Source of the DNA: Pseudogemmobacter humi
Lineage (GTDB): Bacteria; Pseudomonadota; Alphaproteobacteria; Rhodobacterales; Rhodobacteraceae
DNA length: 64,000 nucleotides
Assembly: GCF_900609055.1 (NCBI RefSeq)
Contig: NZ_UXAW01000051.1
Location: forward strand, 186,001 to 250,000
Direction: 5' to 3'
Part shown: positions 1 through 22,088 of the stretch, one piece after another
Layout of the letters: each line of letters opens with the position of its first letter
How positions within the stretch are numbered: position 1 is the stretch's first letter
Notes under the pieces: model-generated
Told to the model about the DNA's origin: nothing
What the model saw: the letters and a program-made list of their open reading frames with translations, nothing else
Database searches by the model: none
Translations under genes and position numbers: made by a program

Positions 1-287
1 TCCAGCCGCCGCCGCATCCGTCCGGCCACATAGCCGCCGGCGAGGTAGCTCGCGACCAGCGAGATCACGATCCAGATCGCGGTGACGATGAGCCAGAGGC
101 TGAACGACCCCTCGCCCGGTTCGGCAGAGATCGTGGTCAGGCCGAGCGCCGCGCCGAAGGCGGTGAACAGCCCGGCGATGGCGGCGGCAACGACTGCGCC
201 CCCCAGCACCGCCGGCCAGTCGATGTAAGAGCCCGGAAGCTCCCGGCGCGGCGCGCTGGCGGCGGTCATGGTTTCAGTGCGTTCCAT
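1..287 (-). CDS. Small membrane protein, C-terminus off-window (partial)
   Basis: Only the first 95 codons are inside the window; the gene continues past the left edge. The product starts MERTETMTAAS and has two hydrophobic stretches (about residues 27-50 and 66-90), rich in Ala, Gly, Val and Ile, followed by an Arg cluster (GRMRRR). It is therefore an inner-membrane protein with a short cytoplasmic N-terminus. I do not recognise a catalytic motif. The ATG at 287 has an AGGAGG ribosome site 8 nt upstream that overlaps the stop codon of the 24-codon gene before it (300-374), so the two are probably translationally coupled and share the stress-type promoter at 457-481. Function unknown. Confidence 0.75.
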   Translation of the reverse strand, partial: MERTETMTAASAPRRELPGSYIDWPAVLGGAVVAAAIAGLFTAFGAALGLTTISAEPGEGSFSLWLIVTAIWIVISLVASYLAGGYVAGRMRRRL

Positions 288-299
288 CACCGGCCCTCC

Positions 300-374
300 T
301 CAGCGCAGACCGAGAAACGACAGGATGGCGAGAACCACGACCACGAGGCCGACAAGATAGATGATGCTGTTCAT
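300..374 (-). CDS. 24-aa hydrophobic small protein
   Basis: A 24-codon reading frame, MNSIIYLVGLVV..., ending in SFLGLR. It is almost entirely one hydrophobic helix (residues 4-21) with a C-terminal Arg, the form of a single-pass small membrane protein. The ATG at 374 follows a GAGGGA ribosome site, and its TGA stop overlaps the AGGAGG of the next gene, which supports real translation. It is first in a transcript that would start near 450 from the GGAAC-N16-GGTT promoter. No function can be inferred; small hydrophobic proteins of this type are common in stress regulons. Confidence 0.6.
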   Translation of the reverse strand: MNSIIYLVGLVVVVLAILSFLGLR

Positions 375-837
375 TTGACTTCCCTCAGAAGGGGCCGGTT
401 ATGGCATTGTCGGAACGGCCGGGCAGCGGCCGCGGTGAAGGGGCGCCCGGGATCAGAACCCGGAAACCGTGACAAGGTTCCGCGCCGCTGCGCTCCGGCG
501 GGTGGACACCGGCAAGGCGCCCGCAGGACAGGCGGGCGTTGCCGCGCTTGTCCGCAGCGTCTGTGGGCGGAAACGGCCGGGCATGAGGCCGCATTTGTCG
601 GGCCGCGGCGAGAGCCCTGCGCCCAATGCGCCACCGGTGCCGTGGACCAGAGAGGCGGCGACGCCCGGGGCGCGGGCTGCTGGAAACGGGCGATGATCTC
701 TTGCCGCCGCGGCAAATTTCTCGCCGGTCCGGCCCCGCCTGCGGGAAGGCCTGGAGAGCGGCCTCCGATCCGGCCGGGCAGAGATGCGTGGAGAACGGGC
801 GGGGACCGGAGCCTCCTGCGGCCCCGGCGCGGGGCCC
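375..837. other. Intergenic region with one stress-type promoter
   Basis: 463 bp between the 24-codon gene and the zinc-ribbon gene. Open frames here are long only because stop codons are rare at this G+C; their translations are Arg/Pro/Gly-rich and low-complexity. The recognisable elements are the EcfG-type promoter at 457-481 and a short G+C hairpin (ggcccc/ggggcc, 820-836) directly after the stop of the zinc-ribbon gene. Confidence 0.6.
457..481 (-). promoter_or_regulatory. EcfG-type promoter for the small membrane genes
   Basis: On the minus strand GGAAC (481-477), 16 nt, then GGTT (460-457), followed by CTG. This fits the alphaproteobacterial general-stress consensus GGAAC-N16/17-CGTT with C replaced by G. 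Transcription would start about 75 nt before the ATG at 374. Confidence 0.6.
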
Positions 838-2730: not shown

Positions 2731-4116
2731 TCATCCCGATCCTGAATATGGGGCGAAGCGGGCCTCGGCGGGGGTGATGGTCAGCGGGCGGCCGAGCGTG
2801 GGGAAGGCGCGCTGCGGGCAGCCCTGGCGCTCGCAGAGCTTGCAGCCGGGGCCGATCTTCACCGCGCGGTCCGCGCCCTTCAGGTCGAGGTCGCGGGCAT
2901 AGACCAGCCGGTCGGCATGGCTCAGGTCGCAGCCCAGAGCGACGGCGAAGGTCTTTTCCGGCGCGCCGAACCCGCCCGAGCCGTGGCGGACCTGGCGCGC
3001 GATCCACAGATAGCTGCGGCCGTCGGGCATCTGGGCGATCTGGCGCAGGATCTCGGTCGGGCGCGCGAAAGCCTCGTAGACGTTCCAGAGCGGGCACGAG
3101 CCGCCGATCCGCGAGAAGTGGAAATCGGTCGCCGACTGGCGTTTCGAGATGTTCCCGGCGCGGTCCACCCGGATGAAGAAGAACGGCACGCCGCGGGCGC
3201 CGGGGCGTTGCAGGGTCGACAGCCGGTGGCTGGTGGTTTCAAACCCCACGCCGAAACGTCCGGCGATCAGGTCGATGTCGTAGGCCAGTTCCTCGGCCGC
3301 CGAAAGAAAGCGCCGGTAGGGCATGATCAGCGCGCCGGCGAAGTAATTCGCGAGCCCGATCTTCAGCAGGCTCTGGGCTTCGGGCACAAGGCCGGTTTCG
3401 GCGGCCAGCCGGGCGATGGCCTCGCCCTGTTCCAGAAAGGCGAGCTGGGTGGCGATCTGGAAGGCGCGCTGGCCGGGGCCGAGATGGGCGGCAAGGGAAA
3501 GGACGCGGCTGTCGGGATCGAAGCGGCGCAGCACCGTGCCGGGCTGATCCGAGATGCGGATGCCGTGGCGCCCGGCCAGCCGGTCGATCAGCCCGGGGAT
3601 CATCCGGCCGATGGCGAGGCTGTCGCCGATCGCCTCGGCGGCCTCGTCAAGGTCCGACACATAGTTGCGCCGCTCGCAGAACCAGTCGCGCACCGCCTCG
3701 AACGCGGCGGGGCTGGTCAGGCTGCCGCTTTCGGTCAGTCGCCCGGCCAGCAGGTCGGCGCGCTCCGAAGTCTCGCGCAGGCGGCGCTGCATGGCGGTGA
3801 TGCAGCGCGCCACTTCGGGCATGTTCGAGGCGATCTCGCGCACCTCGGCCAGGCTGACCGAGGCGCCCTGATCGGCAAGCGCCGCGCGCAGATCGGTGAT
3901 CAGCCGCGCCTCTTCGGCATCCGAGAACAGCTGCACATCGAGGCCGAAGGCCGCGTTCAGCCGCACCAGAACCGGCACCGTCAGCGGGCGGATGTTCTGC
4001 TCAAGCTGGTTGAGATAGCTGGGGCTGATGTCCAGCGCCCGCGCAAGCGCCGCCTGCGTGAGGCCGCGTTCCTCGCGCAACCGGCGCAGACGGACGCCCA
4101 TGAAAGTCTTGCTCAT
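2731..4116 (-). CDS. ScfR-family short-chain acyl-CoA regulator (methylcitrate operon)
   Basis: A 461-aa regulator. Residues about 5-60 form an XRE helix-turn-helix (RLRRLREERGLTQ, then SPSYLNQLEQ). The middle (about 230-330) is an ImmA/IrrE-like segment with YFAGALIMPYRRFL and a SHRLSTLQRPGARGVPFFF block. The C-terminus carries a C-x2-C-x4-C motif (CKLCERQGC). This is the ScfR architecture (RamB, PccR, MccR relatives), whose members sense short-chain acyl-CoAs and control propionate or acetate genes. It diverges from the thioesterase-prpDCB operon, so it most likely controls that operon. Direct repeats directly upstream of its own ATG suggest autoregulation. It shares its domain order and Cys motif with the second family member at 11877-13310. 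Confidence 0.85.
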   Translation of the reverse strand: MSKTFMGVRLRRLREERGLTQAALARALDISPSYLNQLEQNIRPLTVPVLVRLNAAFGLDVQLFSDAEEARLITDLRAALADQGASVSLAEVREIASNMPEVARCITAMQRRLRETSERADLLAGRLTESGSLTSPAAFEAVRDWFCERRNYVSDLDEAAEAIGDSLAIGRMIPGLIDRLAGRHGIRISDQPGTVLRRFDPDSRVLSLAAHLGPGQRAFQIATQLAFLEQGEAIARLAAETGLVPEAQSLLKIGLANYFAGALIMPYRRFLSAAEELAYDIDLIAGRFGVGFETTSHRLSTLQRPGARGVPFFFIRVDRAGNISKRQSATDFHFSRIGGSCPLWNVYEAFARPTEILRQIAQMPDGRSYLWIARQVRHGSGGFGAPEKTFAVALGCDLSHADRLVYARDLDLKGADRAVKIGPGCKLCERQGCPQRAFPTLGRPLTITPAEARFAPYSGSG

Positions 4117-4139
4117 CTTCGCAACCTTCGCAATTCGCA
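4117..4139. promoter_or_regulatory. Tandem TTGCGAAG repeats at the ScfR1 start
   Basis: Read on the minus strand, TTGCGAAGG is followed at once by TTGCGAAGA, a 9-bp tandem direct repeat ending at the regulator's ATG. ScfR-family operators are TTTGCAAA-like, so this is a likely autoregulatory site that would also block the ribosome site. Confidence 0.45.
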
Positions 4140-4205
4140 GGGCGTTTCTTCACAATGATACGCATTTTCAGTAGTTTAAATGCAATGTTGATCTGTGAAA
4201 AGGTG

Positions 4206-4226
4206 CCTTTGCCAATCTTGCAAAGG
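4206..4226. promoter_or_regulatory. CCTTTGC-N7-GCAAAGG operator upstream of the methylcitrate operon
   Basis: A perfect inverted repeat with 7-bp arms (4206-4212 and 4220-4226) and a 7-bp spacer, 9 nt before the thioesterase ATG. The half-site GCAAAG resembles the TTTGCAAA-type sites of the ScfR family. It is the best candidate operator for the divergent regulator. Confidence 0.55.
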
Positions 4227-4234
4227 TCCGACAG

Positions 4235-4615
4235 ATGCCCGCCGAGTCCGAGATCCGCACGATCGAACTGATCCTGCCCGAACAGGCCAACCATTACGGA
4301 ACGCTGTTCGGCGGCCATGCGCTGGCGCTGATGGCCAAAAGCGCCTTCGTCGCGGCGGTGCGTCATGCGGATTGCGCGGTGGTGATGGCGCGCTCGGACC
4401 GGGTGGATTTCGCCACGCCGATCCGGGTGGGCGAGATGCTGGAACTCGTGGCCCGCGTGGCCCGCACCGGGCGCTCGTCGATGACGGTCGAGGTCGAGGC
4501 CACCGCCCGCTCCATCGGCGGCGCGGGCGCCCGAACCGCGCTTTCGGGGCGGTTCGAGATGGTGGCGGTGGATGGCCAGGGCCGCCCGCGCGCTGTCGGC
4601 ACAGAAGTTTCTTGA
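4235..4615 (+). CDS. Hotdog-fold acyl-CoA thioesterase (YciA/BACH type)
   Basis: A 126-aa single-hotdog protein with the family signature N-x-x-G-x-x-FGG (NHYGTLFGG, residues 20-28) leading into the long hotdog helix. It is expected to hydrolyse short acyl-CoAs to free acid and CoA in the cytoplasm. It is the first gene of the methylcitrate operon, 13 nt before prpD, which suggests it relieves build-up of propionyl-CoA or methylcitryl-CoA-type intermediates. One oddity: aligned by eye to YciA, where the helix contains a catalytic Asp (...MSQMD...), this protein has Ala at that position ([10 protein letters not shown]). Either another acid serves or activity is altered. Confidence 0.75.
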
Positions 4616-4628
4616 GAAGGAAAAGACC

Positions 4629-6140
4629 ATGATTACCCACGAGCTGCGCACGTATAAATCGGCCGAGCATCTGCCGCGCGAGGCGCAACTGGCCTGGAAG
4701 ATCGCCGAAGTGGCCGCCGATCCGGTTGCGGTGGAGCCGGGGGTCACCGCGATGATCATCAACCGGATCATCGACAACGCCGCCGTGGCCGCGGCCTCGG
4801 TCGCGCGCCGTCCGGTCGCCTCGGCCCGGGCGCAGGCGCTTTGCCATCCGATGCGCCCCGGCGCGACGGTGTTCGGCCTGACGCCCGAAACCCGCGTCAG
4901 CCCGGAATGGGCGGCCTGGGCGAACGGCACCGCGGTGCGCGAGCTCGATTTCCACGACACGTTTCTGGCCGCCGACTACTCGCACCCCGGTGACAATATC
5001 CCGCCGATCCTCGCGGTGGCGCAGCACACCGGGCGCTCGGGCGCCGATCTGATCCGCGGTCTGGCGACGGGCTACGAGATCCAGGTCAACCTCGTGCGCG
5101 CCATCTGCCTGCACGAGCACAAGATCGACCATATCGCCCATCTCGGGCCGTCGGCCGCCGCCGGGATCGGCACGCTGCTGAACCTGCCGGTGGAAGTGAT
5201 CTGCCAGGCGGTGCAGCAGGCTTTGCATGTCACCACCACCACCCGCCAAAGCCGCAAGGGCGAAATCTCGTCCTGGAAAGCCTTTGCCCCCGCCTTCGCC
5301 GGCAAGATGGCCATTGAAGCGGTCGACCGCGTGCTCCGCGGCGAAGGCGCCCCCAGCCCGGCCTGGGAGGGCGAGGACGGCTTCATCGCCTGGCTTCTGT
5401 CCGGCCCGAATGCCCGCTATCAGGTGCCGCTGCCCGGCCCCGGCGAGGCGAAACGCGCGATCCTCGACACCTATACCAAGGAGCATTCGGCGGAATACCA
5501 GAGCCAGGCGCTGATCGACCTCGCGCGCCGGATGGGGCCGCAGATCGGTGATCTGTCGCAGGTGGAAAGCATCGTGATCCACACCAGCCATCACACCCAT
5601 TACGTGATCGGCACCGGCGCGAACGATCCGCAGAAGATGGACCCGAAGGCCTCGCGCGAGACGCTCGACCATTCGATCATGTATATCTTCGCGGTGGCGC
5701 TGGAAGACGGCGGCTGGCACCACGAGAAGAGCTATGCCCCCGAACGCGCAAACCGGCCCGAGACCGTCGCGCTCTGGCATAAGATCTCGACCACCGAAGA
5801 CCCGGAATGGACGCGGCGCTACCATGCGCGCGACCCGAAAGAGAAAGCCTTCGGCGGCCGCGTTGTGGTGAAGCTGAAGGACGGCCGCGTGATCGAAGAC
5901 AGCCTCGCGCTGGCCGATGCGCACCCGGACGGCGCCCGCCCCTTCGGACGCGAGAATTACGTGAAGAAGTTCCTCACCCTGTCGGACGGCGTGATCGCAA
6001 GTGCGGAACAGCAGCGCTTCCTCGATGCGGTCGAGAATCTCGCCGCGCTGAAGGCGGGGGACCTCGCGGCACTGAACTTCACCGTGGGTGCCGACCGGCT
6101 TGGCCCGGCCCGGCCCGCCGGCATCTTCGACTGGAAATAA
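4629..6140 (+). CDS. prpD: 2-methylcitrate dehydratase (MmgE/PrpD family)
   Basis: The 503-aa product matches the MmgE/PrpD family along its length. It has the N-terminal helical domain with the [17 protein letters not shown] signature near residues 115-131, and a C-terminal domain with [13 protein letters not shown]. It dehydrates 2-methylcitrate to 2-methylaconitate in propionate oxidation. The ATG at 4629 follows the thioesterase stop by 13 nt and has an AGAAGGAAAAG ribosome site. The gene lies between the thioesterase and prpC in the same transcript. It is slightly longer than E. coli PrpD (483 aa). No acnD/prpF pair is present here. Confidence 0.9.
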
Positions 6141-6151
6141 GGGGAAAAGAG

Positions 6152-7321
6152 ATGAGCGGTTCCGCTTTGAGACCGAAGAAATCCGTCGCCCTGTCGGGGG
6201 TGGTGGCCGGGAACACCGCGCTTTGCTCGGTCGGGCAAAGCGGGAACGACCTGCATTATCGCGGCTTCGACATTCTCGACATTGCCGAGGCCTGCGAATT
6301 TGAAGAGGTGGCGCATCTTCTGATCCACGGCACTTTGCCGACCGCATCGGAACTGGCCGCCTACAAGGCGAAGCTGAAGGCGTTGCGCGGGCTTCCCCTC
6401 GCCGTGCGGCAGACGCTGGAGGCCATTCCGGCCGCGGCGCATCCGATGGATGTGCTGCGGTCGGGCGTGTCGGCGCTTGGCTGCGTGCTGCCCGAGGCGC
6501 ATGACCACAACATCCCAGGCGCGCGCGACACCGCCGACCGGCTGGTGGCGGTGCAGGCGTCGATGCTGCTCTACTGGCATCATTACGCACAGAACGGGCG
6601 GCGGATCGAGGTCGAGACCGGCGACGACAGCGTGGCGGGGCATTTCCTGCATCTTCTGCACGGACACCCGGCCGACGAGGCCGGGGTGCGCGCGATGCAC
6701 ACCACGCTGAACCTTTACGCCGAGCATGAGTTCAACGCCTCGACCTTCACCGCGCGCACCATCGCCGGGACCGGCTCGGACGTTTACTCCTGCATCGCCG
6801 GGGCCATCGGCGCGCTGCGCGGCCCGAAACACGGCGGCGCGAACGAGGTCGCCTTCGAGATCCAGAAGCGTTACGCCTCGCCCGATGAGGCCGAAGAAGA
6901 CATCCGCCGCCGGGTCGCGGCGAAAGAGGTGATCATCGGCTTCGGCCATCCGGTCTATACCATCGCCGATCCGCGCAATGTGGTCATCAGGCGCGTGGCG
7001 CGGCGGCTGGCCGAGGCCAAAGGGTCGGTGAAGATGTTCGACATCGCCGGGCGGATCGAGGCGGTGATGGCGGAAACGAAGCAGATGTTCCCCAATCTCG
7101 ACTGGTTTTCGGCGGTGTCCTATCATCTGCTGGGTGTGCCGACGGCGATGTTCACCCCGATTTTCGTCATCGCCCGCACCGCGGGCTGGGGCGCCCATGT
7201 GATCGAGCAGCGGCTCGACAACAAGATCATCCGCCCTTCGGCCAATTACACCGGGCCGGAGAACCGCGCCTTCCTGCCGCTGGCCAGCCGCGGCGGGTTG
7301 CTGACCGGGCCGGAGGCGTGA
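6152..7321 (+). CDS. prpC: 2-methylcitrate synthase
   Basis: A 389-aa citrate-synthase-fold enzyme. Active-site blocks are visible: [13 protein letters not shown] with the catalytic His and [13 protein letters not shown] with the second His, plus the ENRAFLP C-terminal region. It condenses propionyl-CoA with oxaloacetate. The start at 6152 lies 11 nt after prpD with ribosome site GGGGAAAAGAG. Its length and its place between prpD and prpB separate it from housekeeping citrate synthase (about 430 aa). The stop is immediately followed by prpB. Confidence 0.92.
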
Positions 7322-7322
7322 C

Positions 7323-8237
7323 ATGCCCTATCTGATCGCTGACGAGCAACCCGAGGCCCCCGCCGGCGCGCGGTTCCGCGCCGCGCTGGCCCGGCCGGAC
7401 ATCCTGAAACTGCCCGGAGCGCACAACGGCCAGGCCGCGCTTCAGGCCAAAGCCGCCGGGTTCGGGGCGCTGTATCTTTCCGGCGCGGCGATGACGGCCA
7501 GCATGGGCCTGCCCGATCTGGGCATCATCACCGTGGACGAAGTGGCCTTCTTCATCCGCCAGATCGCGCGCGCCTCGGGTCTGCCGCTCTTGGTGGATGG
7601 CGATACCGGCTATGGCGAGGCGCTGAACGTCATGCACATGGTCCGCGTCTTCGAAGAGGCGGGCGCGGGCGCCGTGCATCTGGAGGACCAGCTTCTTCCC
7701 AAAAAATGCGGCCATCTGAACGACAAGAAGCTGGCCTCTGCCTCCGACATGGCGGCCAAGGTGGCGGCGGCGGCGCGGGCGGCGCGGCATCTGGTGGTGA
7801 TCGCGCGCACCGATGCGGCGGCGAGCGAGGGGATCGAGGGCGCGGTTGCGCGGGCGAAGCTTTATGTCGAGGCCGGGGCCGATGCGATCTTCCCCGAGGC
7901 GCTGACCAGCGTCGGGATGTTCAAAGAGGTCCGCGCCCGGCTGCCGGGGGTGAAGCTGCTGGCCAATATGACCGAGTTCGGCCGCACCCCCGCCCTGACC
8001 GCGCAGGAGTTCCAGGAACTCGGCTATGACATGGTGATCTGGCCGGTCTCGTCGCTGCGGGTCGCCAACAAAGCGCAGGCGAAACTTTATGCGACGCTGG
8101 CGCGCGACGGGGCGACCACGGCGATGATCCCCGAGATGCAGACCCGGGCCGAGCTTTACGACATGATCGGCCTGAATGCCTTCGAGGCGCTGGACCGTTC
8201 GATCGCGCGTTCGGTGGTGCCGGACTGGCAGGGCTGA
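7323..8237 (+). CDS. prpB: 2-methylisocitrate lyase
   Basis: The 304-aa product belongs to the isocitrate lyase/PEP mutase superfamily. It shows the KKCGH active-site motif (LLPKKCGHLNDKK, near residue 123), VDGDTGYGE for metal binding, and NMTEFGRTP. It splits 2-methylisocitrate into pyruvate and succinate, the last step of the methylcitrate cycle. The ATG starts 1 nt after the prpC stop, so the two are tightly coupled. A Rho-independent terminator follows at 8261-8294. Succinate from this enzyme would link to the glyoxylate-cycle genes next door. Confidence 0.92.
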   Translation: MPYLIADEQPEAPAGARFRAALARPDILKLPGAHNGQAALQAKAAGFGALYLSGAAMTASMGLPDLGIITVDEVAFFIRQIARASGLPLLVDGDTGYGEALNVMHMVRVFEEAGAGAVHLEDQLLPKKCGHLNDKKLASASDMAAKVAAAARAARHLVVIARTDAAASEGIEGAVARAKLYVEAGADAIFPEALTSVGMFKEVRARLPGVKLLANMTEFGRTPALTAQEFQELGYDMVIWPVSSLRVANKAQAKLYATLARDGATTAMIPEMQTRAELYDMIGLNAFEALDRSIARSVVPDWQG

Positions 8238-8260
8238 GGCCCGGCCTCTGACAGGAAGAT

Positions 8261-8294
8261 GCGGCGGGGCCTTCCGGTCCCGCCGCTTTCTTTT
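8261..8294 (+). terminator. Rho-independent terminator of the methylcitrate operon
   Basis: Arms GCGGCGGG (8261-8268) and CCCGCCGC (8279-8286), followed by TTTCTTTT. Confidence 0.85.
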
Positions 8295-8300
8295 ACACCA

Positions 8301-8332
8301 GAAGAAACGCCGCGCCCGAAGGCGCGGCGTTT
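8301..8332 (-). terminator. Terminator of the aceB-aceA operon
   Basis: A 12-bp perfect stem (AAACGCCGCGCC, 8305-8316; partner 8321-8332) with a 4-nt loop. On the minus strand it is followed by TTTCTTC. It sits back to back with the prpB terminator between the two convergent operons. Confidence 0.8.
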
Positions 8333-8408
8333 CCCGGTGGACGGGGGAGGGTGGCGATCCCGGCCCGAAAGGCGGCCCGCCCCCGACACACCAGCCCGGC
8401 CCCGTCCG

Positions 8409-10016: not shown

Positions 10017-10048
10017 GGGTTTTCCTTTTCTGACAATGGGATGGGGGA

Positions 10049-10068: not shown

Positions 10069-10096
10069 AAGGGGGAAAGCGTGCGGACAGGATCCA

Positions 10097-13467: not shown

Positions 13468-13965
13468 TCAGGCGGCTTCGAGCGCCGCCTGATTGACCGA
13501 GGCATTGGCCAGATCGGTCAGCGCCGTATCCGTCGCCTCTTCTTCGGACAGGGTTTCCTGAAGGATTTTCGCGATCTGCTTCTGGCCGAGCAGCTCGGCC
13601 CAGTTGCGCAGCGTGCCGTAGCGCGAGATTTCGTAATGCTCGACCGCCTGGGCAGAGGCGACGAGGCCCGCGTCCAGCGCCGGGGCGCCTGCGAAGGATT
13701 CCAGCACCTCTTCGCCCTCTTCGATGATGCCCTCGATCGCCGGGCAGGTCTTGCCGCGCGCGGGCTTGCCGAGGATGTCGAACACCTGTTGCAGGCGCTC
13801 GACATGGGTCTGGGTCTCGTCGTGATGCTTCTCGAAAGCCGCGCGCAACTCCGGCGCCCGGGCGCCGCGCGCCATCTTCGGCAGGGCCTTCAGGATCTTG
13901 CGCTCGGCGTAATACACGTCCTTCAGCAGATCGAGGAAAAGATCGTCGAGGGTGCGGGTCTTCAT
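13468..13965 (-). CDS. DUF892 ferritin-like stress protein (YciE/YciF family)
   Basis: The 165-aa product matches the DUF892 family: it starts LDDLFLDLLKDVYYAERKILKALPKM and continues with the HHDETQTHVERLQQVF helix and VEHYEISRYGTL. Glu/His residues on four helices form a ferritin-like fold. These proteins are induced by osmotic and general stress in many bacteria; their biochemical role is unclear. The ATG at 13965 has AGGAG 7 nt upstream. The promoter at 14008-14032 has the EcfG signature, which agrees with the family's stress role. Confidence 0.88.
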   Translation of the reverse strand: MKTRTLDDLFLDLLKDVYYAERKILKALPKMARGARAPELRAAFEKHHDETQTHVERLQQVFDILGKPARGKTCPAIEGIIEEGEEVLESFAGAPALDAGLVASAQAVEHYEISRYGTLRNWAELLGQKQIAKILQETLSEEEATDTALTDLANASVNQAALEAA

Positions 13966-14325
13966 GACATCACTCCTGTGTCTGAGGGGATAGGATCGTG
14001 CGGCAAGAACCCCTGCCGTCGGGGATTGTTCCGCTTATCCGGCGTGGCCGCGGGATGAGCGATTCCCCGCCGGTGCGGCGCATTCCCCGGGCCGGAACCG
14101 CCCCGCCCCCGGATCGCCAGGGAACAATGTCGCCCGGCGCGGCTTTTTAAAGCGTGGCCCGGTCAGGCGAGCACCGCCGGGAATGGCCGGGGGAAAGGCC
14201 GGGAGGCAAGCCGCGCAGCTGTCCGCGGCCAAATGTCGGCGGCGGAGGCCCGCCTTCGTCCGTCTTTCGCGCCGCAGAGCAATGCCCGCATCAACGGCGC
14301 CTTCAGGGCGTCAGGGAGATTACGC
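13966..14325. other. Intergenic region between DUF892 and the sigma factor
   Basis: 360 bp with the leftward EcfG-type promoter at 14008-14032. A rightward GGAAC at 14121-14125 has CTTT 17 nt downstream, a poor match that I do not call. I see no reading frame with believable codon use. Confidence 0.55.
14008..14032 (-). promoter_or_regulatory. EcfG-type promoter for the DUF892 gene
   Basis: Minus strand: GGAAC (14032-14028), 16 nt, GGTT (14011-14008), about 45 nt before the ATG at 13965. Confidence 0.65.
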
Positions 14326-14958
14326 ATGAGCGACCGCATGACCGGCGCCGGGACGAGAGGACCGTCCCCGCCGAACGGCCTGCCGGGAAGGGCCTGGCAG
14401 GGGAAATCCCCGCGGCCGGTGGCGGCGAACGGCAGGCCCCGGGACCGGGGTTTCGCCCGCCGCGAAGACACCGGCTGCAATGAGGAAATCGTCGGTCATA
14501 TCCCGGCCCTGCGCATCTTCGCGCGGTCGCTGTGCCGCAATCCGGTCGAGGCGGATGATCTGGTCCAGGAGACCCTGGTGCGCGCGATCGGGAACATCCG
14601 CCTGTTCCGCACCGGCACCAATCTGCGCGCCTGGCTCTTCACCATCATGCGCAACCGCTTCTATTCCAACTGGGCCAAACGCGCGCGCGAGCGGACCGGC
14701 GACGGTGATTGCGTGTCGTCGATCCCGGTGGCGTCCGGGGACCGGCAGTTCTGGCATATCCGGTTGCAGGAGATGGAGCGCGCGCTGGCCGCCCTGCCGG
14801 TGCATTACCGCGAGACGATCATCCTCGTGGCGGTGCTGGGCGAAAGCTATCTCCAGGCGGCGGAAATCCTCGGCTGCGACATCGGCACGATCAAAAGCCG
14901 GGTGAACCGCGCCCGCGTCGCCCTGCGCGACAGGCTGGGCGATGTGACGCCCGACTGA
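14326..14958 (+). CDS. ECF sigma factor, EcfG-like
   Basis: A 210-aa sigma-70-family protein. A disordered basic N-terminus (about 50 aa) precedes region 2 (IPALRIFARSLCRN...EADDLVQETLVRAIGN) and region 4 (ALPVHYRETIILVAVLGESYLQAAEILGCDIGTIKSRVNRAR). The region 2 and 4 wording resembles EcfG-type general-stress sigma factors. The start at 14326 is chosen for GGGAG 8 nt upstream; longer in-frame starts lack this. No PhyR and no adjacent anti-sigma gene are present, though a NepR-like protein lies 1.6 kb away. Genes on both sides carry EcfG-type promoters, so this sigma factor may be the one that reads them. Confidence 0.82.
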   Translation: MSDRMTGAGTRGPSPPNGLPGRAWQGKSPRPVAANGRPRDRGFARREDTGCNEEIVGHIPALRIFARSLCRNPVEADDLVQETLVRAIGNIRLFRTGTNLRAWLFTIMRNRFYSNWAKRARERTGDGDCVSSIPVASGDRQFWHIRLQEMERALAALPVHYRETIILVAVLGESYLQAAEILGCDIGTIKSRVNRARVALRDRLGDVTPD

Positions 14959-14980: not shown

Positions 14981-15006
14981 GGAACAAAGCGCCGGCGCCG
15001 CGGGTT
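14981..15006 (+). promoter_or_regulatory. EcfG-type promoter for the SDR gene
   Basis: GGAAC (14981-14985), 17 nt, GGTT (15003-15006), 33 nt before the ATG at 15040. Confidence 0.6.
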
Positions 15007-15039: not shown

Positions 15040-16095
15040 ATGCCCGAGCAGCAGCTTCCCCCCGTCACCCCTAATGCCAGCCTGCGCGAACCCGCGCCGG
15101 GCGTGATCGACCAGCGTCAGGGCCAGGTCGATCCGGCCGGACGTCACCGCGAAGACCCCGACGCGCGGCCCGACAGTAATACCAGACAGCCCGGCGGAGG
15201 CGCGGCTCTGGTCGCGGCCCACGGCCACGGCCCGGTGCATCCGCATTATCCGAAGCCGCCGTTCCCCGAGCAGACCCAGGAACTGCCCGGCAGCTTCCGC
15301 CGGATGGAGCCGCGCCCCGATCATGGCGAGGAAAGCTGGCGCGGCGCCGGGCGGCTCGATGGTATGGTGGCGCTGATCACCGGCGGCGACAGCGGCATCG
15401 GCCGCGCCGTCGCCATCGCCTATGCCCGCGAGGGGGCCGATGTGGCGATCTCGTTCCTCGAAGAGACCGAAGACGCCCGCGACACCGCCCGGCTGGTGGA
15501 GGAGGCGGGCCGCCGCGTGCTGTTGCTGCCCGGCGATATCGCCGATCCCGACCATTGCCGAGATATCGTCGCGCAAGTGGTGCGCGGGTTCGGACGGATC
15601 GACATCCTCGTGAACAATGCCGCGCATCAGGAGACCTTCGAGGATCTGGAAAGCATCCCCGACGAGGAATGGCAGCGCACCTTCGCCACCAATATCCATG
15701 CGATGTTCTACCTTGCCAAAGCGGCGGTGCCGCATATGGCGCCGGGCAGCGCGATCATCAACACCGCCTCGATCAACGCCGACAAGCCGAACCCGACGCT
15801 GCTGGCCTATGCCACCACCAAGGGCGCGATCCAGAACTTCACCGGCGGGCTGGCGCAGATGCTGGCCGAACAGGGTATCCGGGTGAACTGCGTCGCGCCC
15901 GGCCCGGTCTGGACGCCGCTGATCCCTGCCAGCATGCCGGGCGGGAAGGTTGCGAAATTCGGCGCGAACTATCCGATGAAGCGCCCGGCGCAGCCGGTGG
16001 AGCTGGCCTCGGCCTATGTGATGCTGGCCGAGCCGATGTCGAGCTATGTCTCGGGCGCGACGCTGGCGGTGACCGGCGGCAAGCCGCTGATCTGA
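15040..16095 (+). CDS. Short-chain dehydrogenase with extended N-terminus
   Basis: A 351-aa SDR. Residues 1-105 are a Pro/Gly/His-rich extension. The Rossmann domain then starts VALITGGDSGIGRAVA (NAD(P) loop), with NNAAHQ, a catalytic Ser in TASIN and the YATTK catalytic Tyr/Lys pair. This layout matches stress-induced glucose/ribitol dehydrogenase-like SDRs (YghA, B. subtilis general stress protein 39). The substrate is unknown. The ribosome site is GAGGAGAG 10 nt before the ATG. An EcfG-type promoter lies directly upstream, so it is likely stress-induced. Confidence 0.85.
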   Translation: MPEQQLPPVTPNASLREPAPGVIDQRQGQVDPAGRHREDPDARPDSNTRQPGGGAALVAAHGHGPVHPHYPKPPFPEQTQELPGSFRRMEPRPDHGEESWRGAGRLDGMVALITGGDSGIGRAVAIAYAREGADVAISFLEETEDARDTARLVEEAGRRVLLLPGDIADPDHCRDIVAQVVRGFGRIDILVNNAAHQETFEDLESIPDEEWQRTFATNIHAMFYLAKAAVPHMAPGSAIINTASINADKPNPTLLAYATTKGAIQNFTGGLAQMLAEQGIRVNCVAPGPVWTPLIPASMPGGKVAKFGANYPMKRPAQPVELASAYVMLAEPMSSYVSGATLAVTGGKPLI

Positions 16096-16113: not shown

Positions 16114-16139
16114 GGAACAAACCGGGCGGCGGGGGCGTT
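16114..16139 (+). promoter_or_regulatory. EcfG consensus promoter for the small membrane protein
   Basis: GGAAC (16114-16118), 17 nt, CGTT (16136-16139): an exact match to the general-stress consensus, 32 nt before the ATG at 16172. It is the best of the eight in this window. Confidence 0.75.
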
Positions 16140-16171: not shown

Positions 16172-16498
16172 ATGTCCGCCCCCCAGACCAATCTCGACCG
16201 GCAGCGCAAAAGGCATCGCGGGCCGCTGATCGGCATCGCGCTGGTGACGCTGTTCGCGCTGGCGGTGATCGTCTACTGGCTGTTTGAAGAGGTGGCCGGG
16301 TCCGATCCCTCCGCCCCGGCCGGAACCGGGGCAGGCACCGTGAACGAGCCCGCGCAATCCGGGATCCCGGCCGATGCGCTCGGCCCCGAGACGCAGACCG
16401 GCATTCCCGGCACCACGACCGCACCGCCCGCCCCCGCGCCGGAGCCGCAGGAAAGCGCCCCGATGCCGAACACGCCGCAGGAACTGACGCCGGACTGA
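16172..16498 (+). CDS. Single-pass membrane protein with Pro-rich tail
   Basis: 108 aa: a basic N-terminus (NLDRQRKRHRG), one membrane helix at about residues 18-38 (LIGIALVTLFALAVIVYWLF), and a low-complexity Pro/Ala/Gly/Thr tail expected in the periplasm. The ATG has AAGGAG 7 nt upstream. No family recognised. The exact-consensus EcfG promoter upstream makes it a probable member of the general stress response, like the small membrane genes at the left end of the window. Confidence 0.7.
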   Translation: MSAPQTNLDRQRKRHRGPLIGIALVTLFALAVIVYWLFEEVAGSDPSAPAGTGAGTVNEPAQSGIPADALGPETQTGIPGTTTAPPAPAPEPQESAPMPNTPQELTPD

Positions 16499-17086: not shown

Positions 17087-17584
17087 CTATTCGATCACGG
17101 CGCAGGCCAGCCGGTCTCCGGCGCCGCCGGTCGGCTGGCTGTGGTAATCGTCGGCGCCCGCATGGATCATCAGTGCCCGGCCGCGGATCGAACTCTCGCC
17201 TTCGGCCAGGGTGACCCAGGGGTTGAACACTTCGGCACGGGCGAAACCATCGGCATCGGTGCGGATATTCGGCATGTCGCCCGCATGGGGGCCGTTTTCG
17301 GCCAGAACACCGTGATCGGCGCCGGCCGGGTTGAAATGGCCACCGGCGGATTCGTGTCCGGTCTCATGATCGCAGGTGCCGGTCTCATGGATGTGAAAGC
17401 CCAGCCACTGGCTGGCGGGCAGCGCCTCCACCTCGATACGGATCAGCACGCCCCCGGGCGCCGCGGTCAGCGTCGCGGTGCCGGTGGCGGTGCCTTCGGT
17501 ATTGATAAAGCTGGCGGTGCCGTCCTGAGCGAGGGCGGGCAGCGCCAGCGCGCAGAGGCCAAGGGTGCAGATCAGGTGTTTCAT
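17087..17584 (-). CDS. sodC: Periplasmic Cu,Zn superoxide dismutase
   Basis: 165 aa with a Sec signal peptide (MKHLICTLGLCALALPALA-Q). It has the full metal set: GFHIHETGTCDH (Cu/Zn His ligands and one disulfide Cys), GGHFNPAGADHG and HAGDMPNI (Zn site), and MIHAGADDYHSQPTGGAGDRLACAVIE near the C-terminus with the last Cu His, the catalytic Arg and the second Cys. It removes superoxide in the periplasm. Transcribed leftwards from a GGAAC-N16-GGTT promoter 30-54 nt upstream, which fits the stress cluster. Confidence 0.95.
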   Translation of the reverse strand: MKHLICTLGLCALALPALAQDGTASFINTEGTATGTATLTAAPGGVLIRIEVEALPASQWLGFHIHETGTCDHETGHESAGGHFNPAGADHGVLAENGPHAGDMPNIRTDADGFARAEVFNPWVTLAEGESSIRGRALMIHAGADDYHSQPTGGAGDRLACAVIE

Positions 17585-17613: not shown

Positions 17614-17638
17614 AACCGGCGCGGGCGGGGGTTGTTCC
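17614..17638 (-). promoter_or_regulatory. EcfG-type promoter for sodC
   Basis: Minus strand: GGAAC (17638-17634), 16 nt, GGTT (17617-17614), 30 nt before the ATG at 17584. It overlaps the spacer after the cytochrome c gene stop at 17644. Confidence 0.6.
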
Positions 17639-17643
17639 CGGGC

Positions 17644-19008
17644 TCAGCGGGTCTGGGGCCGGTCCTCGCGGCGGATGCGCGCCACCTCATCCGCGCTGAC
17701 CGGGGCGGCGTCATTGCCCCAGGCCCGGCGCAGGAAGCTGGCGAGTTCGGCGATCTCGGCATCATCCAGCCGCCCGGCGTAGCCCTGCATCACCAGGGGC
17801 ATCGGCCGCGCTGCGGTGCCCGGCACTTCGGCCCCGTCGAGGATGATCGAGATGAGCGGCGTGATCTCGTCCGAGACCACCAGCGAATTGCCCTGCAACG
17901 CCGGGAAGATCTCCGGCGAGCCGCGCCCGGTCGAGAAATGGCAGGCGGCGCAGTTGTCGACATAAAGCCGCGCGCCGAGCGGCATGTCGGGGCTGACCGC
18001 GCTGAGAAGCGCCTCGGTCGCGGCGCCCGCCGCATCGGCCTCGGGCGGCATCAGCGCGGCGGGGCCCATGGGTGCCACGGCCTCGGGCGGGTCGTGCGGC
18101 TGGCCGTCCAGCGCCTTGAGGAACCGCGACAGCGCGATGATGTCGTCCTGGCTCAGATATTGCAGCGAATGTTCCACCACGAGGCGCATCTCGCCATTCG
18201 CCGTGGTGCGGAAGTTGCGCCCGGTGGCGAGGAGGGCGGCAAGCTCCGACACCGGCCATTCGCGAAGCACGCTCTGCGGCCCGCGCAGGGGGGGTGCCTC
18301 CCAGCTCTCGATATGGCCGCCGGTCAGAAAGGCGGGGTCGTCGGCGGTGATCCCGTCCTGGCCCATGTAAACCGTGCGCGGGCTGTGGCAGGCGGCGCAA
18401 TGGCCCGGCCCCTCGGCCAGATACTGGCCGCGGTCCAGCGCCGGATCGCCCATGGTGCCGGTGAAGCCGCTGTCGTGGTTCAGGGTCAGCCAGTTCAGCA
18501 CCCGGATGCCCCATCTCTGGTTGAAGGGGAAAGGCAGCTCGGGCTCGGGAACCGGGTTCCGGACCGGCGCCACCTCCTCCATGAAATAGCCGTAGAGCGC
18601 GCGGATGTCGCGCTCGGTCAGCATGCGGAAATTCTCGTAGGGCATGGCGGGGTAGAGATGCGCCCCGTCGGCGCGGAGCCCGTCGATCAGCGCGGCGCGG
18701 AACTGATCGAGGCTCCAGTTGCCGATGCCGGTTTCCGGGTCGGGGGTGATGTTGGCGGTCCAGATCCGGCCCATCGGGCTCTCGATGGCCCGCCCGCCGG
18801 CGAAATCCGCGCCGCCGTCTGCGGTGTGGCAGGCGAGGCAATCGCCCGCGCGCATGGCGTATTCCCCGGCGCCGGGCGCGGGCGTCCAGCCGGCGGCCAA
18901 AGCCTCGGAGGGCGGCGTGCGCTGCACCGGGATCAGGATGATCCCCGCGACCGCCAGCGCGGCAAGAAGGACGAGAGCGGCGAGGATGCGGAACAGAGTT
19001 TTCATCAT
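17644..19008 (-). CDS. Triheme cytochrome c subunit of a GMC-type dehydrogenase
   Basis: A 454-aa protein with an N-terminal membrane anchor (residues about 5-27) and three CxxCH heme sites: CLACH near 57, CAACH near 207 and CAACH near 356. This three-domain layout is that of the cytochrome c subunit of membrane gluconate, sorbitol, alcohol or FAD-glucose dehydrogenases, which passes electrons from the flavoprotein to quinone or a c-type cytochrome. It follows the flavoprotein gene by 9 nt and the small subunit gene precedes both. The start MM at 19008/19005 follows a G-rich ribosome site. Confidence 0.9.
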   Translation of the reverse strand: MMKTLFRILAALVLLAALAVAGIILIPVQRTPPSEALAAGWTPAPGAGEYAMRAGDCLACHTADGGADFAGGRAIESPMGRIWTANITPDPETGIGNWSLDQFRAALIDGLRADGAHLYPAMPYENFRMLTERDIRALYGYFMEEVAPVRNPVPEPELPFPFNQRWGIRVLNWLTLNHDSGFTGTMGDPALDRGQYLAEGPGHCAACHSPRTVYMGQDGITADDPAFLTGGHIESWEAPPLRGPQSVLREWPVSELAALLATGRNFRTTANGEMRLVVEHSLQYLSQDDIIALSRFLKALDGQPHDPPEAVAPMGPAALMPPEADAAGAATEALLSAVSPDMPLGARLYVDNCAACHFSTGRGSPEIFPALQGNSLVVSDEITPLISIILDGAEVPGTAARPMPLVMQGYAGRLDDAEIAELASFLRRAWGNDAAPVSADEVARIRREDRPQTR

Positions 19009-19017: not shown

Positions 19018-20787
19018 TCAGACCAGAGGGCCGGGGTTCGGCAGATACTGCCGCCGGATCGCATCGGCCGCCCAATAGGCCAGCCCGCCCACCAGCCCGG
19101 TCGGGTTGTATTGCGTGTTCTGCACGAAGGCCCCGGCGCCCATGGCGAAGACATTGTGCTTGTCCCAGGCCTGGAGGTAGCGGTTCAGCGGCCCGCCCTC
19201 GGGCGTCGCCGCCATGATCGTGCCGCCGGTGTTATGCGTGGTCTGATAGGGCCGCACGTCGTATTGCGCGCCCTCTTCCTTGTAGCTGTGGCTGACCAGA
19301 TCGGGCTGCATGGCGGCGGCGAGGGTCTCGATCTTTCCGCGCAGGAAATCGTTCAGCCGCAGCTCATTGGGGTGCCAGTTGAAGGTGATCCGCATCAGCG
19401 GACGGCCGTGGCGGTCGCGGTAGGTCGGATCCAGATCGCAGTAATGCCCGCGGTAGGACATGACCGAGCCGTGATGCGAGATGCTCATCTCATGGCCATA
19501 CCATTCGGCGATGGCGCTTTTCCAGCCGGCGCCCCATTGCGGTGTGTCGTCGGGCAGGGGCATCGAGCGGATCGGCTGGCCGTTCGTTTGCGCCGAAGAG
19601 ATATAGGCGCCGCCGATGAAACCCTCGGCCCCGAAGTCGATGGCGTTCATGCCGAAATCGTCGATACAGGCGCCATTCACCCCCGAGCCGACGAAGGGGT
19701 TGAAATGCTCGTCCCTGAAGAACAGCGAGGTCGAGCCGGTGATCTGATAGGCGTAGTTCTTCCCCGTGGTGCCGGTGCCGCTGACCGGATCGTAGGGTTC
19801 TCCGATCCCCGAAAGCAGCATCAGCCGCGTGTTCTCGATCTGATAGGCGGCGAGGATCACGATGTCGGCGGGCTGGAACACCTCTTCGCCGGCTTCCTCG
19901 TCGAACCAGGTCACGCCGGTCGCGCTGCGCCTGTCGGGGGCCATCTCGACGCGCAGGACCTCGGCCCCGCTGCGGTGGCTGAAATTCGGCTTGCGAAAGA
20001 GCGCCGCGAGGATCGTGGTCTGCGGCGAGGATTTGGAATACTGGTAGCAGCCGTAACGCTCGCAAAAGCCGCAGAAATTGCAGGCGCCCATCTGCATCCC
20101 GTATTCGTTGACGTAGGATGTCGAGGCATTGCCCCCGGGGCGGGGGAACGGGTGGTAGCCCATGGCCCGCGCCGCTTCCGAGAATTTCACCCCGTTCCAG
20201 GTCAGGGGCAGCGGCGGCATCGGGTAATCGCGCGAGCGCCGGCCCTCGAACGGATTGCCGCCTTCGCGGATCTCGCCGTTGATATTGCCGGCGATGCCGG
20301 AAATCCCGGCCACCCGCTCGAAACGGTCGAAACAGGGCTCCAGCTCGTCATAGGTGACGGGGTAGTCACCGATGGTCATGTCTTCGGGGATGATCTCTTC
20401 GCCCCAGTTCTCGCGGATATGGCTGCGCAGCTGCATCTCGACGGGCTGCGGCCGCCAGGTCTGGCCGTTCCAGTGCACGCCCGAGCCGCCCACGCCGTTC
20501 CCCAGCAGGAACGAGCCCCATTTGCGCATCGGCCGCGCGGTTTCCTGAAGGTTGCGCCGGATCGTCACCGTCGACTGGCGCGGGCTGAGCATCAGCTTGT
20601 GGCGCTCGCCGTAGCTCAGTTCGTCGATCATCTCGGGGTAGCGCAGTTCGGGCACCGTCTCGCGCCCCGGGCCGCGTTCCAGCGCCAGGATCTCCAGCCC
20701 CTCTTCGGCCAGTTCCATCCCGAGGATCGCCCCGGTCCAGCCGAGGCCCACGATCACCACGTCTTTCTTCGGATCCTGCCGGGCCAT
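19018..20787 (-). CDS. GMC-family flavoprotein dehydrogenase, large subunit
   Basis: A 589-aa FAD enzyme. The N-terminal dinucleotide loop is VVIVGLGWTGAILGMELAEEGL, and the C-terminal GMC signature includes THNTGGTIM and NPTGLVGGLAYWAAD. A Cys cluster CNFCGFCERYGC (near residues 225-236) matches the 3Fe-4S site of FAD-dependent glucose/gluconate dehydrogenases. It would oxidise a sugar, sugar acid or other polyol in the periplasm after Tat export with subunit 3; this chain has no signal peptide of its own. The gene lies 3 nt after the subunit-3 stop. Substrate not determinable from sequence alone. Confidence 0.9.
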   Translation of the reverse strand: MARQDPKKDVVIVGLGWTGAILGMELAEEGLEILALERGPGRETVPELRYPEMIDELSYGERHKLMLSPRQSTVTIRRNLQETARPMRKWGSFLLGNGVGGSGVHWNGQTWRPQPVEMQLRSHIRENWGEEIIPEDMTIGDYPVTYDELEPCFDRFERVAGISGIAGNINGEIREGGNPFEGRRSRDYPMPPLPLTWNGVKFSEAARAMGYHPFPRPGGNASTSYVNEYGMQMGACNFCGFCERYGCYQYSKSSPQTTILAALFRKPNFSHRSGAEVLRVEMAPDRRSATGVTWFDEEAGEEVFQPADIVILAAYQIENTRLMLLSGIGEPYDPVSGTGTTGKNYAYQITGSTSLFFRDEHFNPFVGSGVNGACIDDFGMNAIDFGAEGFIGGAYISSAQTNGQPIRSMPLPDDTPQWGAGWKSAIAEWYGHEMSISHHGSVMSYRGHYCDLDPTYRDRHGRPLMRITFNWHPNELRLNDFLRGKIETLAAAMQPDLVSHSYKEEGAQYDVRPYQTTHNTGGTIMAATPEGGPLNRYLQAWDKHNVFAMGAGAFVQNTQYNPTGLVGGLAYWAADAIRRQYLPNPGPLV

Positions 20788-20790
20788 GCG

Positions 20791-21498
20791 TCAAGCCCTC
20801 TCGCCGCTGATCGAGACCGGGCCGAGCGGGTAGGGCACGTTGTGCCGCCCGATCCAGTCGCGATATTGCGCGCGCGCGCCCGGAAAGCCGATATGGACCC
20901 AGGCCCGCATGCCGTGATTGCCGCCATGGATCGGGTCCGACAGGTAGCCCTCTTTGGTATTCGCGAGCATCACCTCGAAGAAATCTCGCAACTCGGGCGG
21001 CAGCGGCACCTCTGCGTCTTCCAGCGCGGTCAGCGCCTGATCCTGGATCGCCGGGACGAGATCGGCGAAGGCGGAGCCATGTTCCGCGCGGCACCAGTCG
21101 TCGAACGCCGCGATGCCCTGGCGCCAGAGCCGGGCCGGGGAAAGCGGCGACTGCCAGCCGAGTTCCGGCGGCGCCCCGGCGTCATGCGGGCCTTCCATAT
21201 ACCAGTTGGCCGCCGTGCCGAAATCGCCCGCCAGTTCGCGGTCGATGAACACCGGCACGCGGGCCTCGATCGCGCCGGGGCCGTCGCCTCCGGTCGGGAT
21301 CAGCCGCGCCACCGCGGCCAGCACGAAGGCCCATTCGCCCTCGGTGAAGAATTCGCGGGGATGTTCCGTCAGCGGCGGCAGGGTCTGTCCCTCGGGCGAG
21401 CCGGGCCAAAGACCCGCGAAGGCAAGGCTGGCGGCAGAGACCTGAAGGAAGCGGCGGCGGGCCGGGCGCAGGGCCTGATGTGGCGGCGGGGCTGACAT
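20791..21498 (-). CDS. Gluconate 2-dehydrogenase subunit 3-like protein (Tat substrate)
   Basis: 235 aa. The N-terminus holds a twin-arginine signal (RPARRRFLQVSAASLAFAGL), and the rest matches the subunit-3 family (FFTEGEWAFVLAAVARLIP, then NTKEGYLSDPIHGGN and MRAWVHIGFPGA). It acts as the small chaperone-like subunit that carries the flavoprotein through the Tat system. The ATG at 21498 has GAGGAAA upstream; an earlier in-frame start is less likely. First gene of the three-gene operon (subunit 3, flavoprotein, cytochrome c), with an EcfG-type promoter 90-112 nt upstream. Confidence 0.88.
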   Translation of the reverse strand: MSAPPPHQALRPARRRFLQVSAASLAFAGLWPGSPEGQTLPPLTEHPREFFTEGEWAFVLAAVARLIPTGGDGPGAIEARVPVFIDRELAGDFGTAANWYMEGPHDAGAPPELGWQSPLSPARLWRQGIAAFDDWCRAEHGSAFADLVPAIQDQALTALEDAEVPLPPELRDFFEVMLANTKEGYLSDPIHGGNHGMRAWVHIGFPGARAQYRDWIGRHNVPYPLGPVSISGERA

Positions 21499-22088
21499 AG
21501 GGTTTCCTCGCTTACGAGTGGCTGGGACCGGCATCCCCGGACCGGCCTTCTGCGACCGGCATCGGGGGATGCGTCTGTTTCCCGAACCATGCGAAGGCGG
21601 AAAATGTTCCCTTCCGCGTGCGGGCCAGCAGGTTTAAGGGGCGAAAGCTTCCAGAGCCTGCGCAGGCCCGTTCCGCCCGGGGAAGCTGCGCGCGGTGCCC
21701 CCGGGCTGGTCGCGGCTTTGCTCCTGGCCGCCGTTTTGGCCCCTCTGCCCGCCCTGCTGGCGGCGGGACTGGTCCTGCTGTGCCATTTCCCTTGTCCGGG
21801 GGAACCGGCGGCCGCCTCTTTGATTGCGTGCGGGCCCATCTGAGGGGCAAATGCGGGGCTTTGGTTTTGCCCTGCGAGGTGTGGCCGGAAATAGTTTCCT
21901 TTTGAATCAATGGATAACGCGGTATTTGTGCGAATCCTCGGCGATTTCCTCGTAAAACATGCCGCGATGTGCTATATGAGACGGGCATCTCTTGTTTTCG
22001 GACCTGTTCCTTACGGCTCAGCTTTCGATCTTCAGCTTTGCCGGGCCGCTGCAATCGTGTGAGCGGCATTCATATAAGGAATATCACG
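21499..22088. other. Intergenic region with divergent stress promoter and csp leader
   Basis: 590 bp. On the left is the leftward EcfG-type promoter (21585-21610). The right third (from about 21860) is AT-rich and probably holds the csp promoter and a long 5' leader, typical of cold-shock genes. An 85-codon frame at 21589-21843 on the plus strand lacks a ribosome site and family resemblance, so it is not called. Confidence 0.5.
21585..21610 (-). promoter_or_regulatory. EcfG-type promoter for the GMC dehydrogenase operon
   Basis: Minus strand: GGAAC (21610-21606), 17 nt, GGTT (21588-21585). Confidence 0.55.

Follow-up and report, generated by a model that had tools for sequence, protein, structure and literature searches.

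A putative general-stress island around an orphan EcfG-type sigma factor gene in Pseudogemmobacter humi

Promoter sites and genes around the sigma gene

The stretch of DNA analysed here (the window) comprises 64 kb of contig C101 of Pseudogemmobacter humi (Rhodobacterales), with translations read as gene annotation over 1–24 kb. Towards its left end lies a group of genes preceded by sites of the type read by EcfG, the extracytoplasmic function (ECF) sigma factor of the PhyR–NepR–EcfG general stress response (GSR), and at the centre of this group is a gene for an EcfG-type sigma factor (14326–14958, plus strand) that was absent from an earlier note made on the sequence alone. That note had listed eight sites; all eight are exact matches to GGAACN{16,17}SGTT (S being C or G) and are the sole matches in the 64 kb. 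It had estimated one or two by chance in the window; 100 dinucleotide shuffles gave a mean of 1.04 (standard deviation 1.10, maximum 4), and none reached eight. Each of the eight is oriented correctly toward its gene, as had been stated, but the distances from the end of the −10 element to the hand-chosen start codons, given there as 30–112 nt, were measured as 29–94 nt. The first −10 base is G in seven of the eight, as had been counted.

The open frame at 14233–14958 encodes an ECF sigma factor with an N-terminal extension; the alignment of a Devosia homologue begins at 14326, so the start codon is probably located there. Pfam matches were obtained to Sigma70_r2 (1.4e-16), Sigma70_r4_2 (2.8e-13) and PhyR_sigma2 (5.8e-15), and with the NCBIfam equivalogs the protein scores below their cut-offs. 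Both the ECF architecture (sigma2 + sigma4) and kinship with NepR-linked EcfG were found, and the EcfG/ECF15 label rests on the Pfam sigma regions together with a tree of sequences collected with the window sigma as query. A candidate promoter of the gene, GGAAC-N17-CTTT, lies at 14121–14146 (plus strand), 179 nt before the start codon. Two EcfG paralogues are present in the genome, on contigs C133 (50%) and C49 (37%). The C49 ecfG adjoins a gene with a Pfam match to NepR, and its other neighbours we take, from their translations, to be PhyR and an HWE kinase. C133:33258–37600 (L122) holds an EcfG, a match to the C49 PhyR (61%) and a kinase match; this divergent GSR set has its own small cluster of sites and may be likened to GSR/GSR' of Rubellimicrobium. 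The NepR model matched on C49 only, with a weak, NepR-like match on C133 and none beside the window sigma, which we call orphan, or non-canonical, because its locus is without nepR. No PhyR was noticed among the translations of 1–24 kb, no dedicated search of the window having been made.

Immediately downstream of the sigma gene, a GGAACA...GGTT site with N17 spacing (14981–15006, plus strand) stands 33 nt before a gene for an SDR oxidoreductase (15040–16095, plus strand; profile match), and the sole C-type site of the eight, GGAACA...CGTT with N17 (16114–16139, plus strand), stands 32 nt before a gene for a 108-residue membrane protein, mem108 (16172–16498, plus strand). The remaining sites and their genes are on the minus strand. 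A GGAACA...GGTT site with N16 (14008–14032) precedes by 42 nt a DUF892 gene (13468–13965; PF05974), and another of the same form (17614–17638) precedes by 29 nt the gene for a Cu/Zn superoxide dismutase, SodC (17087–17584; PF00080). A third, with N17 (21585–21610), lies 86 nt before a gluconate 2-dehydrogenase subunit 3-like gene (Gluconate_2-dh3, here Glc2dh3; 20791–21498; profile match), presumed to be the first gene of an operon that continues with a GMC oxidoreductase (19018–20787; profile match) and ends with a protein presumably of cytochrome c type, named from its CxxCH motifs (CytC; 17644–19008). At the left edge are three further N16 sites. The first, GGAACA...GGTT at 2550–2574, lies 94 nt before a gene for a GlgC-like protein (1436–2455) that scores far below the equivalog cut-offs and whose possible operon partner, an 88-residue protein without known function (1158–1424), starts 11 nt downstream. 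The second, GGAACA...GGTT at 1109–1133, lies 34 nt before a gene for a cysteine-rich, zinc-ribbon-like protein (838–1074; weak Metallothio_Pro match, below cut-off). The third, GGAACC...GGTT at 457–481, lies 82 nt before a gene for a 24-residue single-helix membrane peptide (MNSIIYLVG..., 300–374), downstream of which a membrane protein gene recognized by its translation (1–269) leaves the window to about −810. A paralogue of the peptide is encoded at C101:63.7 kb and further homologues lie near EcfG genes elsewhere, every one preceded by a site; these peptides are a possible small stress protein family.

On 330 kb of C101 the N16/17 motif has 14 matches, of which 8 are in promoter position by crude gene calls, compared with 8 of 121 matches at other spacings. 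These calls, made from codon-position GC, placed some true upstream sites (182361, 34167) inside genes, so that such inside and upstream counts are rough; with start codons judged by hand, ten of the 14 lie upstream of genes and four within them. The ten comprise the eight window sites, a ninth at C101:182361–182386, which lies 3.6 kb outside the left edge of the window and 29 nt from the start of the gene that follows, and C101:63717, which precedes the paralogue of the 24-residue peptide. As a control on clustering, 14 off-spacing pairs gave at most five matches in any 21.2 kb, compared with eight for the real motif. Over the whole genome there are 75 GGTT matches compared with 54.6 expected (546 matches at 20 other spacings), and the exact motif is a poor genome-wide predictor, its matches outside the islands being mostly due to chance; the genome-wide scan that the earlier note had proposed therefore holds inside islands and fails elsewhere. 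A reversed-pattern control (157 vs 85; GGTT 75 vs 16) was dropped as unfair in favour of the spacing controls, since over 149 genomes of the order, this one included, the reversed count varies widely and is often above the forward count.

Conservation in related loci

Homologues of the window sigma were sought in a scan of named genomes, and the best 80 of 561 loci were analysed. In these loci GGAAC-N-xGTT peaks at spacers of 16 and 17 only (N16: A 53, C 120, G 219, T 81; N17: A 18, C 64, G 56, T 32), all other spacings giving 1–22 matches each; the T and A boxes arise in part from GGTTCC sites on the opposite strand and are not used as main evidence. Among the Rhodobacterales the density of sites declines from ∼11 per 10 kb in the first kilobase from the sigma gene to ∼2.4 at 9 kb, with off-spacing matches at ∼0.5. 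For a hand-picked 30 of the 80 loci, matches were counted over the whole genome, giving 4689 compared with 3264 expected from the spacing control, an excess of 1425 to which 30 of 30 genomes contribute. Of the 1425 excess sites, 217 fall within the 20 kb surrounding the sigma gene, or 0.43% of the bases, which corresponds to an excess density of 3.55 per 10 kb near the sigma gene and 0.085 elsewhere (∼42-fold).

Sites are also retained before homologues of the island genes. DUF892 homologues near EcfG genes carry a site in 39 of 42 cases, where 0.44 would be expected. Among usable homologues, namely those aligned near the N-terminus and, for most families, of at least 45% identity, a site precedes mem108 (3/3), the 24-residue peptide in EcfG loci (3/3), the zinc ribbon (1/1), Glc2dh3 (2/3), SodC (2/4), the 88-residue protein (5/13) and SDR (3/9); CytC (0/4) and GMC (0/3) have none, and none is expected there because these are inner operon genes. 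In the congener G180 a site precedes each of the SDR, DUF892, mem108 and GlgC-like genes despite a different gene order. These observations show that the eight sites match EcfG promoters in sequence, spacing, position and conservation across species. The island, in which the sigma gene keeps company with EcfG-type promoters in many genomes, is well supported. The clustered general-stress regulon proposed in the earlier note is sustained by the spacing peak, the sites kept before homologues and the local enrichment.

Promoter classes and gene roles

Within the same islands, sigma-gene promoters are mostly GGAACC...C(G/A)TT and effector promoters mostly GGAACA...GGTT. Families were obtained by clustering the proteins downstream of sites, with Ku, PRC, DUF2934 and starch synthase confirmed by Pfam. 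After deduplication the ratio of G to C at the first −10 base is 19:1 for SDR, 23:7 for DUF892, 12:0 for fam4, 12:2 for Ku, 10:2 for PRC-barrel and 4:0 for UdgX; it is 3:25 for sigma genes, 1:5 for the kinase/PhyR group and 1:5 for fam9. When labels were shuffled within orders, the observed homogeneity (0.770, 192 sites) was reached in 0 of 5000 trials (maximum 0.636), a comparison in which kinship within orders remains. Both kinds of gene are present in 27 loci: in 22 the sigma gene has C while DUF892, SDR, fam4 or Ku mostly have G, three have G and G, one C and C and one C and mixed, and none shows the reverse. With CATT and GATT allowed, the 37 deduplicated sigma promoters divide into 36 with C and one with G, while non-sigma genes in orphan-clade loci have G in 78 of 104 cases. 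The base after GGAAC is linked to the −10 base (A..G 106, C..C 62, A..C 39, C..G 41; Fisher 2.3e-7, 322 deduplicated sites). At the base before the −10, effectors often have C-GGTT (42/67) and sigma genes mostly G-CGTT (19/27), which would also allow the G class to be seen as a CGGTT box that begins one position before.

Boxes of CGTT or CATT type stand before many relatives of the sigma gene, 20 of 81 upstream regions having none, and the G180 orthologue has GGAAC-N16-CATT upstream. In the first homologue scan an exact site preceded only 6 of 78 sigma genes, one of these lying impossibly far or near, as sigma starts had been misplaced owing to the N-terminal extension; they are better placed in the later counts. 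Of 19 canonical nepR/phyR intergenic regions examined (C49:4752–4783 and L150–L167 among them), 12 contain an overlapping divergent promoter pair, and 19 of 24 −10 boxes have C. In these pairs the nepR and phyR promoters lie head to head, each −35 being followed almost immediately by the −10 of the opposite promoter (GGAACCAAACG...CGTT).

The earlier note had set the frequent G against a published consensus with C and had suggested a lineage-specific sigma preference. C/GGTT is already in print (PMC4814048, PMC12148442), and a lineage preference is too simple, since in the same loci sigma promoters have C almost throughout. We replace it with classes that follow gene role, effectors being mostly G in two orders and G180 mixing C and G.

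A prediction of this division was written before the DNA of 17 plasmid loci was read, the gene tables of two of them having already been seen; the loci were hand-picked from 40 listed of 212 records, and seven of the 17 are from Paracoccus, near the first set. The spacing preference recurred (N16: G 46, C 12, T 19, A 7; N17: G 10, C 6, T 6, A 4; other spacings 0–6). The 17 sigma genes have CATT (7), CGTT (4), CTTT (1), TGTT (2), GGTT (1) or no box (2). The 31 effectors, picked by annotated name from 10 of the 17 loci with 'ferritin-like' taken as DUF892, have GGTT (17), CGTT (3), TGTT (5), AGTT (2) or none (4); without four SodC/Glc2dh3 genes that lay outside the prediction, the 27 have GGTT (16), CGTT (3), TGTT (4), AGTT (1) or none (3). 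The C:G ratio is 12:1 for sigma genes and 3:17 for effectors (p = 1.4e-5), with CTTT scored as C where the prediction had named CGTT and CATT only, and with a search that allowed CATT, CTTT and CCTT and not the corresponding G forms. In the 81 sigma upstream regions of the first set, G(A/C/T)TT occurs once with N16 and six times with N17.

We lean towards reading the locus as a general-stress island around an orphan EcfG (ECF15-type) sigma factor, in which control would pass from the canonical EcfG to the orphan and from there to G-type effectors, as a portable two-tier module. Stress would act through the canonical PhyR–NepR–EcfG switch (C49, with a second set on C133) to release EcfG; the released EcfG would transcribe the orphan sigma gene from the C-type promoter at 14121–14146; and the orphan sigma, without an adjoining NepR of its own, would read mainly G-type effector promoters, GGAACA-N15/16-GGTT. 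The effectors would be DUF892, SDR, SodC, the GMC dehydrogenase operon, the GlgC-like protein, the zinc ribbon and the small membrane proteins. Portability is suggested by the fact that the sigma gene and its putative targets travel together. A more tentative proposal, which we hold as conceivable and short of probable, is that orphan EcfGs constitute a class of their own, with the code GGAACA-N15/16-GGTT as opposed to the canonical GGAACC-N15/16-C(G/A)TT, and that their modules cross orders, often on plasmids. From these patterns in the DNA we infer a possible division of labour between canonical and orphan EcfG.

A plain EcfG regulon could account for much of the same material: all copies of the sigma factor would read C and G, the −10 base would only tune promoter strength from gene to gene, and the clustering would reflect genes gained beside a sigma gene, with no division of labour. 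We regard this as a serious contender, if a somewhat doubtful one. C/GGTT is published as a single consensus, in the form GAAC-N16,17-C/GGTT for Methylobacterium extorquens, whose paralogues seem to share it (PMC4814048), and as GGAAC-N16-17-C/GGTT applied to Rubellimicrobium thermophilum (PMC12148442). Both EcfGs of Sphingopyxis granuli transcribe CGTT, TGTT, CATT and GGTT promoters in vitro, with output lowered when CGTT is changed to CATT or TGTT (PMC7083833). Mixtures of C and G boxes, in G180 and among the Hyphomicrobiales, also speak for it. What such a regulon accommodates less readily is that the base after GGAAC and the first −10 base shift together, and that the split tracks gene family across two orders and recurs in the plasmid loci.

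The sharing of promoters in S. granuli, and apparently in M. extorquens, weighs against the two-tier module with its separate classes, and so do a number of other points. The two EcfGs of Rhizobium etli act largely in parallel, with no motif obtained from EcfG2 targets (PMC3892343), and Sinorhizobium meliloti RpoE5 had one putative target (PMC6180224). The 80 loci were collected through their resemblance to the orphan sigma and include many relatives of one another, so that counts from them are not independent; two of them (L051, L064) and three of the 17 plasmid loci (L287, L293, L296) are without any S-GTT site. Of the 275 GGTT sites in the 80 loci, crude gene calls assign 139 to the interior of predicted frames and 107 to promoter position, the former share being partly gene-call error according to hand-checked cases. 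Several families depart from the expected base: fam3 (G:C 0:13), glycogen synthase (0:5) and DUF2934 (3:7) are C-type in Hyphomicrobiales, mem108 and two more are even (3:2 each), and Ku has C in its single plasmid case, contrary to the prediction. The split is thus not absolute: the G180 island mixes C and G boxes, the window has a C-type site among its eight, phyR' on C133 is preceded by GGTT where most regulator genes are not, and the candidate promoter of the window sigma gene is itself a CTTT variant.

Comparison by EcfG copy number was made on noncoding sequence in stretches that contain no detected EcfG gene. Single-EcfG genomes (3 × 400 kb) gave GGTT 0 vs 3.7 expected and CGTT 6 vs 3.6, and a three-EcfG congener (400 kb) gave GGTT 1 vs 0.3. 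The lack of GGTT in the single-EcfG samples is weak support for the two-tier module, and the comparison barely discriminates, since GGTT is nearly absent outside EcfG loci in both kinds of genome; this equal scarcity suits a plain regulon. These Rhodobacterales samples show little of a regulon away from the EcfG loci, which fits a report on Rhodobacter sphaeroides in which PhyR plays no major part in general stress (PMC5830050). All 11 multi-EcfG genomes have DUF892, as do 4 of 16 single-EcfG genomes and 0 of 13 with no detected EcfG (40 of 60 genomes; multi- vs single-EcfG, Fisher 1.8e-4). The EcfG-linked DUF892 subfamily was not seen in the single-EcfG genomes tested, and reading the −10 base against EcfG copy number through DUF892 was set aside for this reason.

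A different ECF sigma factor with a GGAA −35, for example an ECF26-like protein, might read the sites instead of EcfG. The ECF26 consensus, GGAATA/GT, is similar to that of ECF15 (PMC6180224) and the genome contains other, weaker ECF-like matches, but the GGAAC sites gather at EcfG relatives, at nepR/phyR and at the ecfG genes themselves, and we consider this explanation improbable. That a GC-rich genome simply yields GGAAC and GTT often, with the gene-near pairs selected, would suit the modest genome-wide GGTT count, but as an origin of the sites it is ruled out by the spacing control and runs counter to the shuffles, the sharp spacing peak, the DUF892 homologues, the excess in every genome counted and the local density, so that we give it next to no credence.

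Known systems, mobility and flanking genes

EcfG promoters, EcfG paralogues, their location on plasmids and C/G at the −10 are already known. With the PhyR–NepR–EcfG (ECF15) GSR the present system shares the −35 GGAAC, the spacer of 16–17, the −10 C/GGTT, a canonical nepR–ecfG–phyR locus in the same genome and stress-type effectors; it differs in that the window sigma is an orphan amid its putative targets and in that promoter subclass tends to follow gene role. Rubellimicrobium thermophilum belongs to the Rhodobacterales. Its GSR and GSR' (PMC12148442) correspond to C49 and C133 in providing two GSR loci per genome with the same C/GGTT, whereas the window island represents a third, orphan EcfG without adjoining NepR. 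The plasmid-borne EcfG2 of R. etli (PMC3892343) is likewise a second EcfG without adjoining nepR/phyR, and relatives of the window sigma are often on plasmids; unlike EcfG2, for which no target motif was found, the window has a candidate motif and a surrounding cluster of targets. One EcfG drives the gene of another in S. granuli (EcfG1/EcfG2; PMC7083833) and S. meliloti (RpoE2 and rpoE5; PMC6180224), as found experimentally, and in Caulobacter crescentus as retold by other papers (including PMC8103513), which speaks for the proposed relay; in the first two the second sigma shares promoters or is almost without targets of its own, whereas separate classes are proposed here.

Extra EcfG copies occur in about half of completed alphaproteobacterial genomes and are described as not satisfactorily explained (PMC3892343), and a 2021 review gives the promoter pattern of non-canonical EcfG as undetermined (PMC8103513). 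Searches of the openly licensed PMC literature returned no account of EcfG islands or of a −10 base that divides by gene role. The islands offer a candidate pattern and target list for such copies, suggest how they may acquire jobs of their own and reduce the question to two purified sigma factors and two promoters. A regulon gathered physically around its sigma gene, and probably mobile with it, also makes it easier to predict which small proteins of unknown function belong to the stress response.

The tree built from 112 sigma sequences has one 20-row clade (100/99) that contains 15 of the 18 rows with a nearby NepR-like match, including the C49 and C133 copies, the remaining three (L068, L070 and L100) lying outside it. 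Window-type orphans form a separate clade (100/100, 26 rows) in which no row has a NepR-like match, in keeping with the two-tier reading. Hyphomicrobiales fall inside this clade as well: Pleomorphomonas, and Devosia, which forms a group (100/93) with the window sigma and G180. The DUF892 tree places the copy of this genome with three congeners and Devosia (100/94), and the SDR tree gives no resolved grouping. A clear sigma orthologue was found in one of 12 other congeners searched (G180, 70%), and 212 plasmid records hold a sigma relative at E ≤ 1e-30. Since both the sigma and DUF892 group with Devosia, a member of another order, the island has probably moved by horizontal transfer; its pieces have not always moved together, as the DUF892 of G180 falls among Rhizobiaceae.

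Inside the cluster, 2731–13310 is occupied by a metabolic block with zero sites, presumably of propionate/glyoxylate type, with two ScfR-like regulators, PrpBCD-like proteins, isocitrate lyase and malate synthase; these genes (2.7–13.3 kb) are taken as neighbours of the island and not as members. To the left of the window (−3986 to −894, or C101:182.0–185.1 kb; L031), the ninth EcfG site is carried by a small DUF883-like gene, beside which are what we take to be a UdgX-type uracil-DNA glycosylase fusion and a radical-SAM protein.

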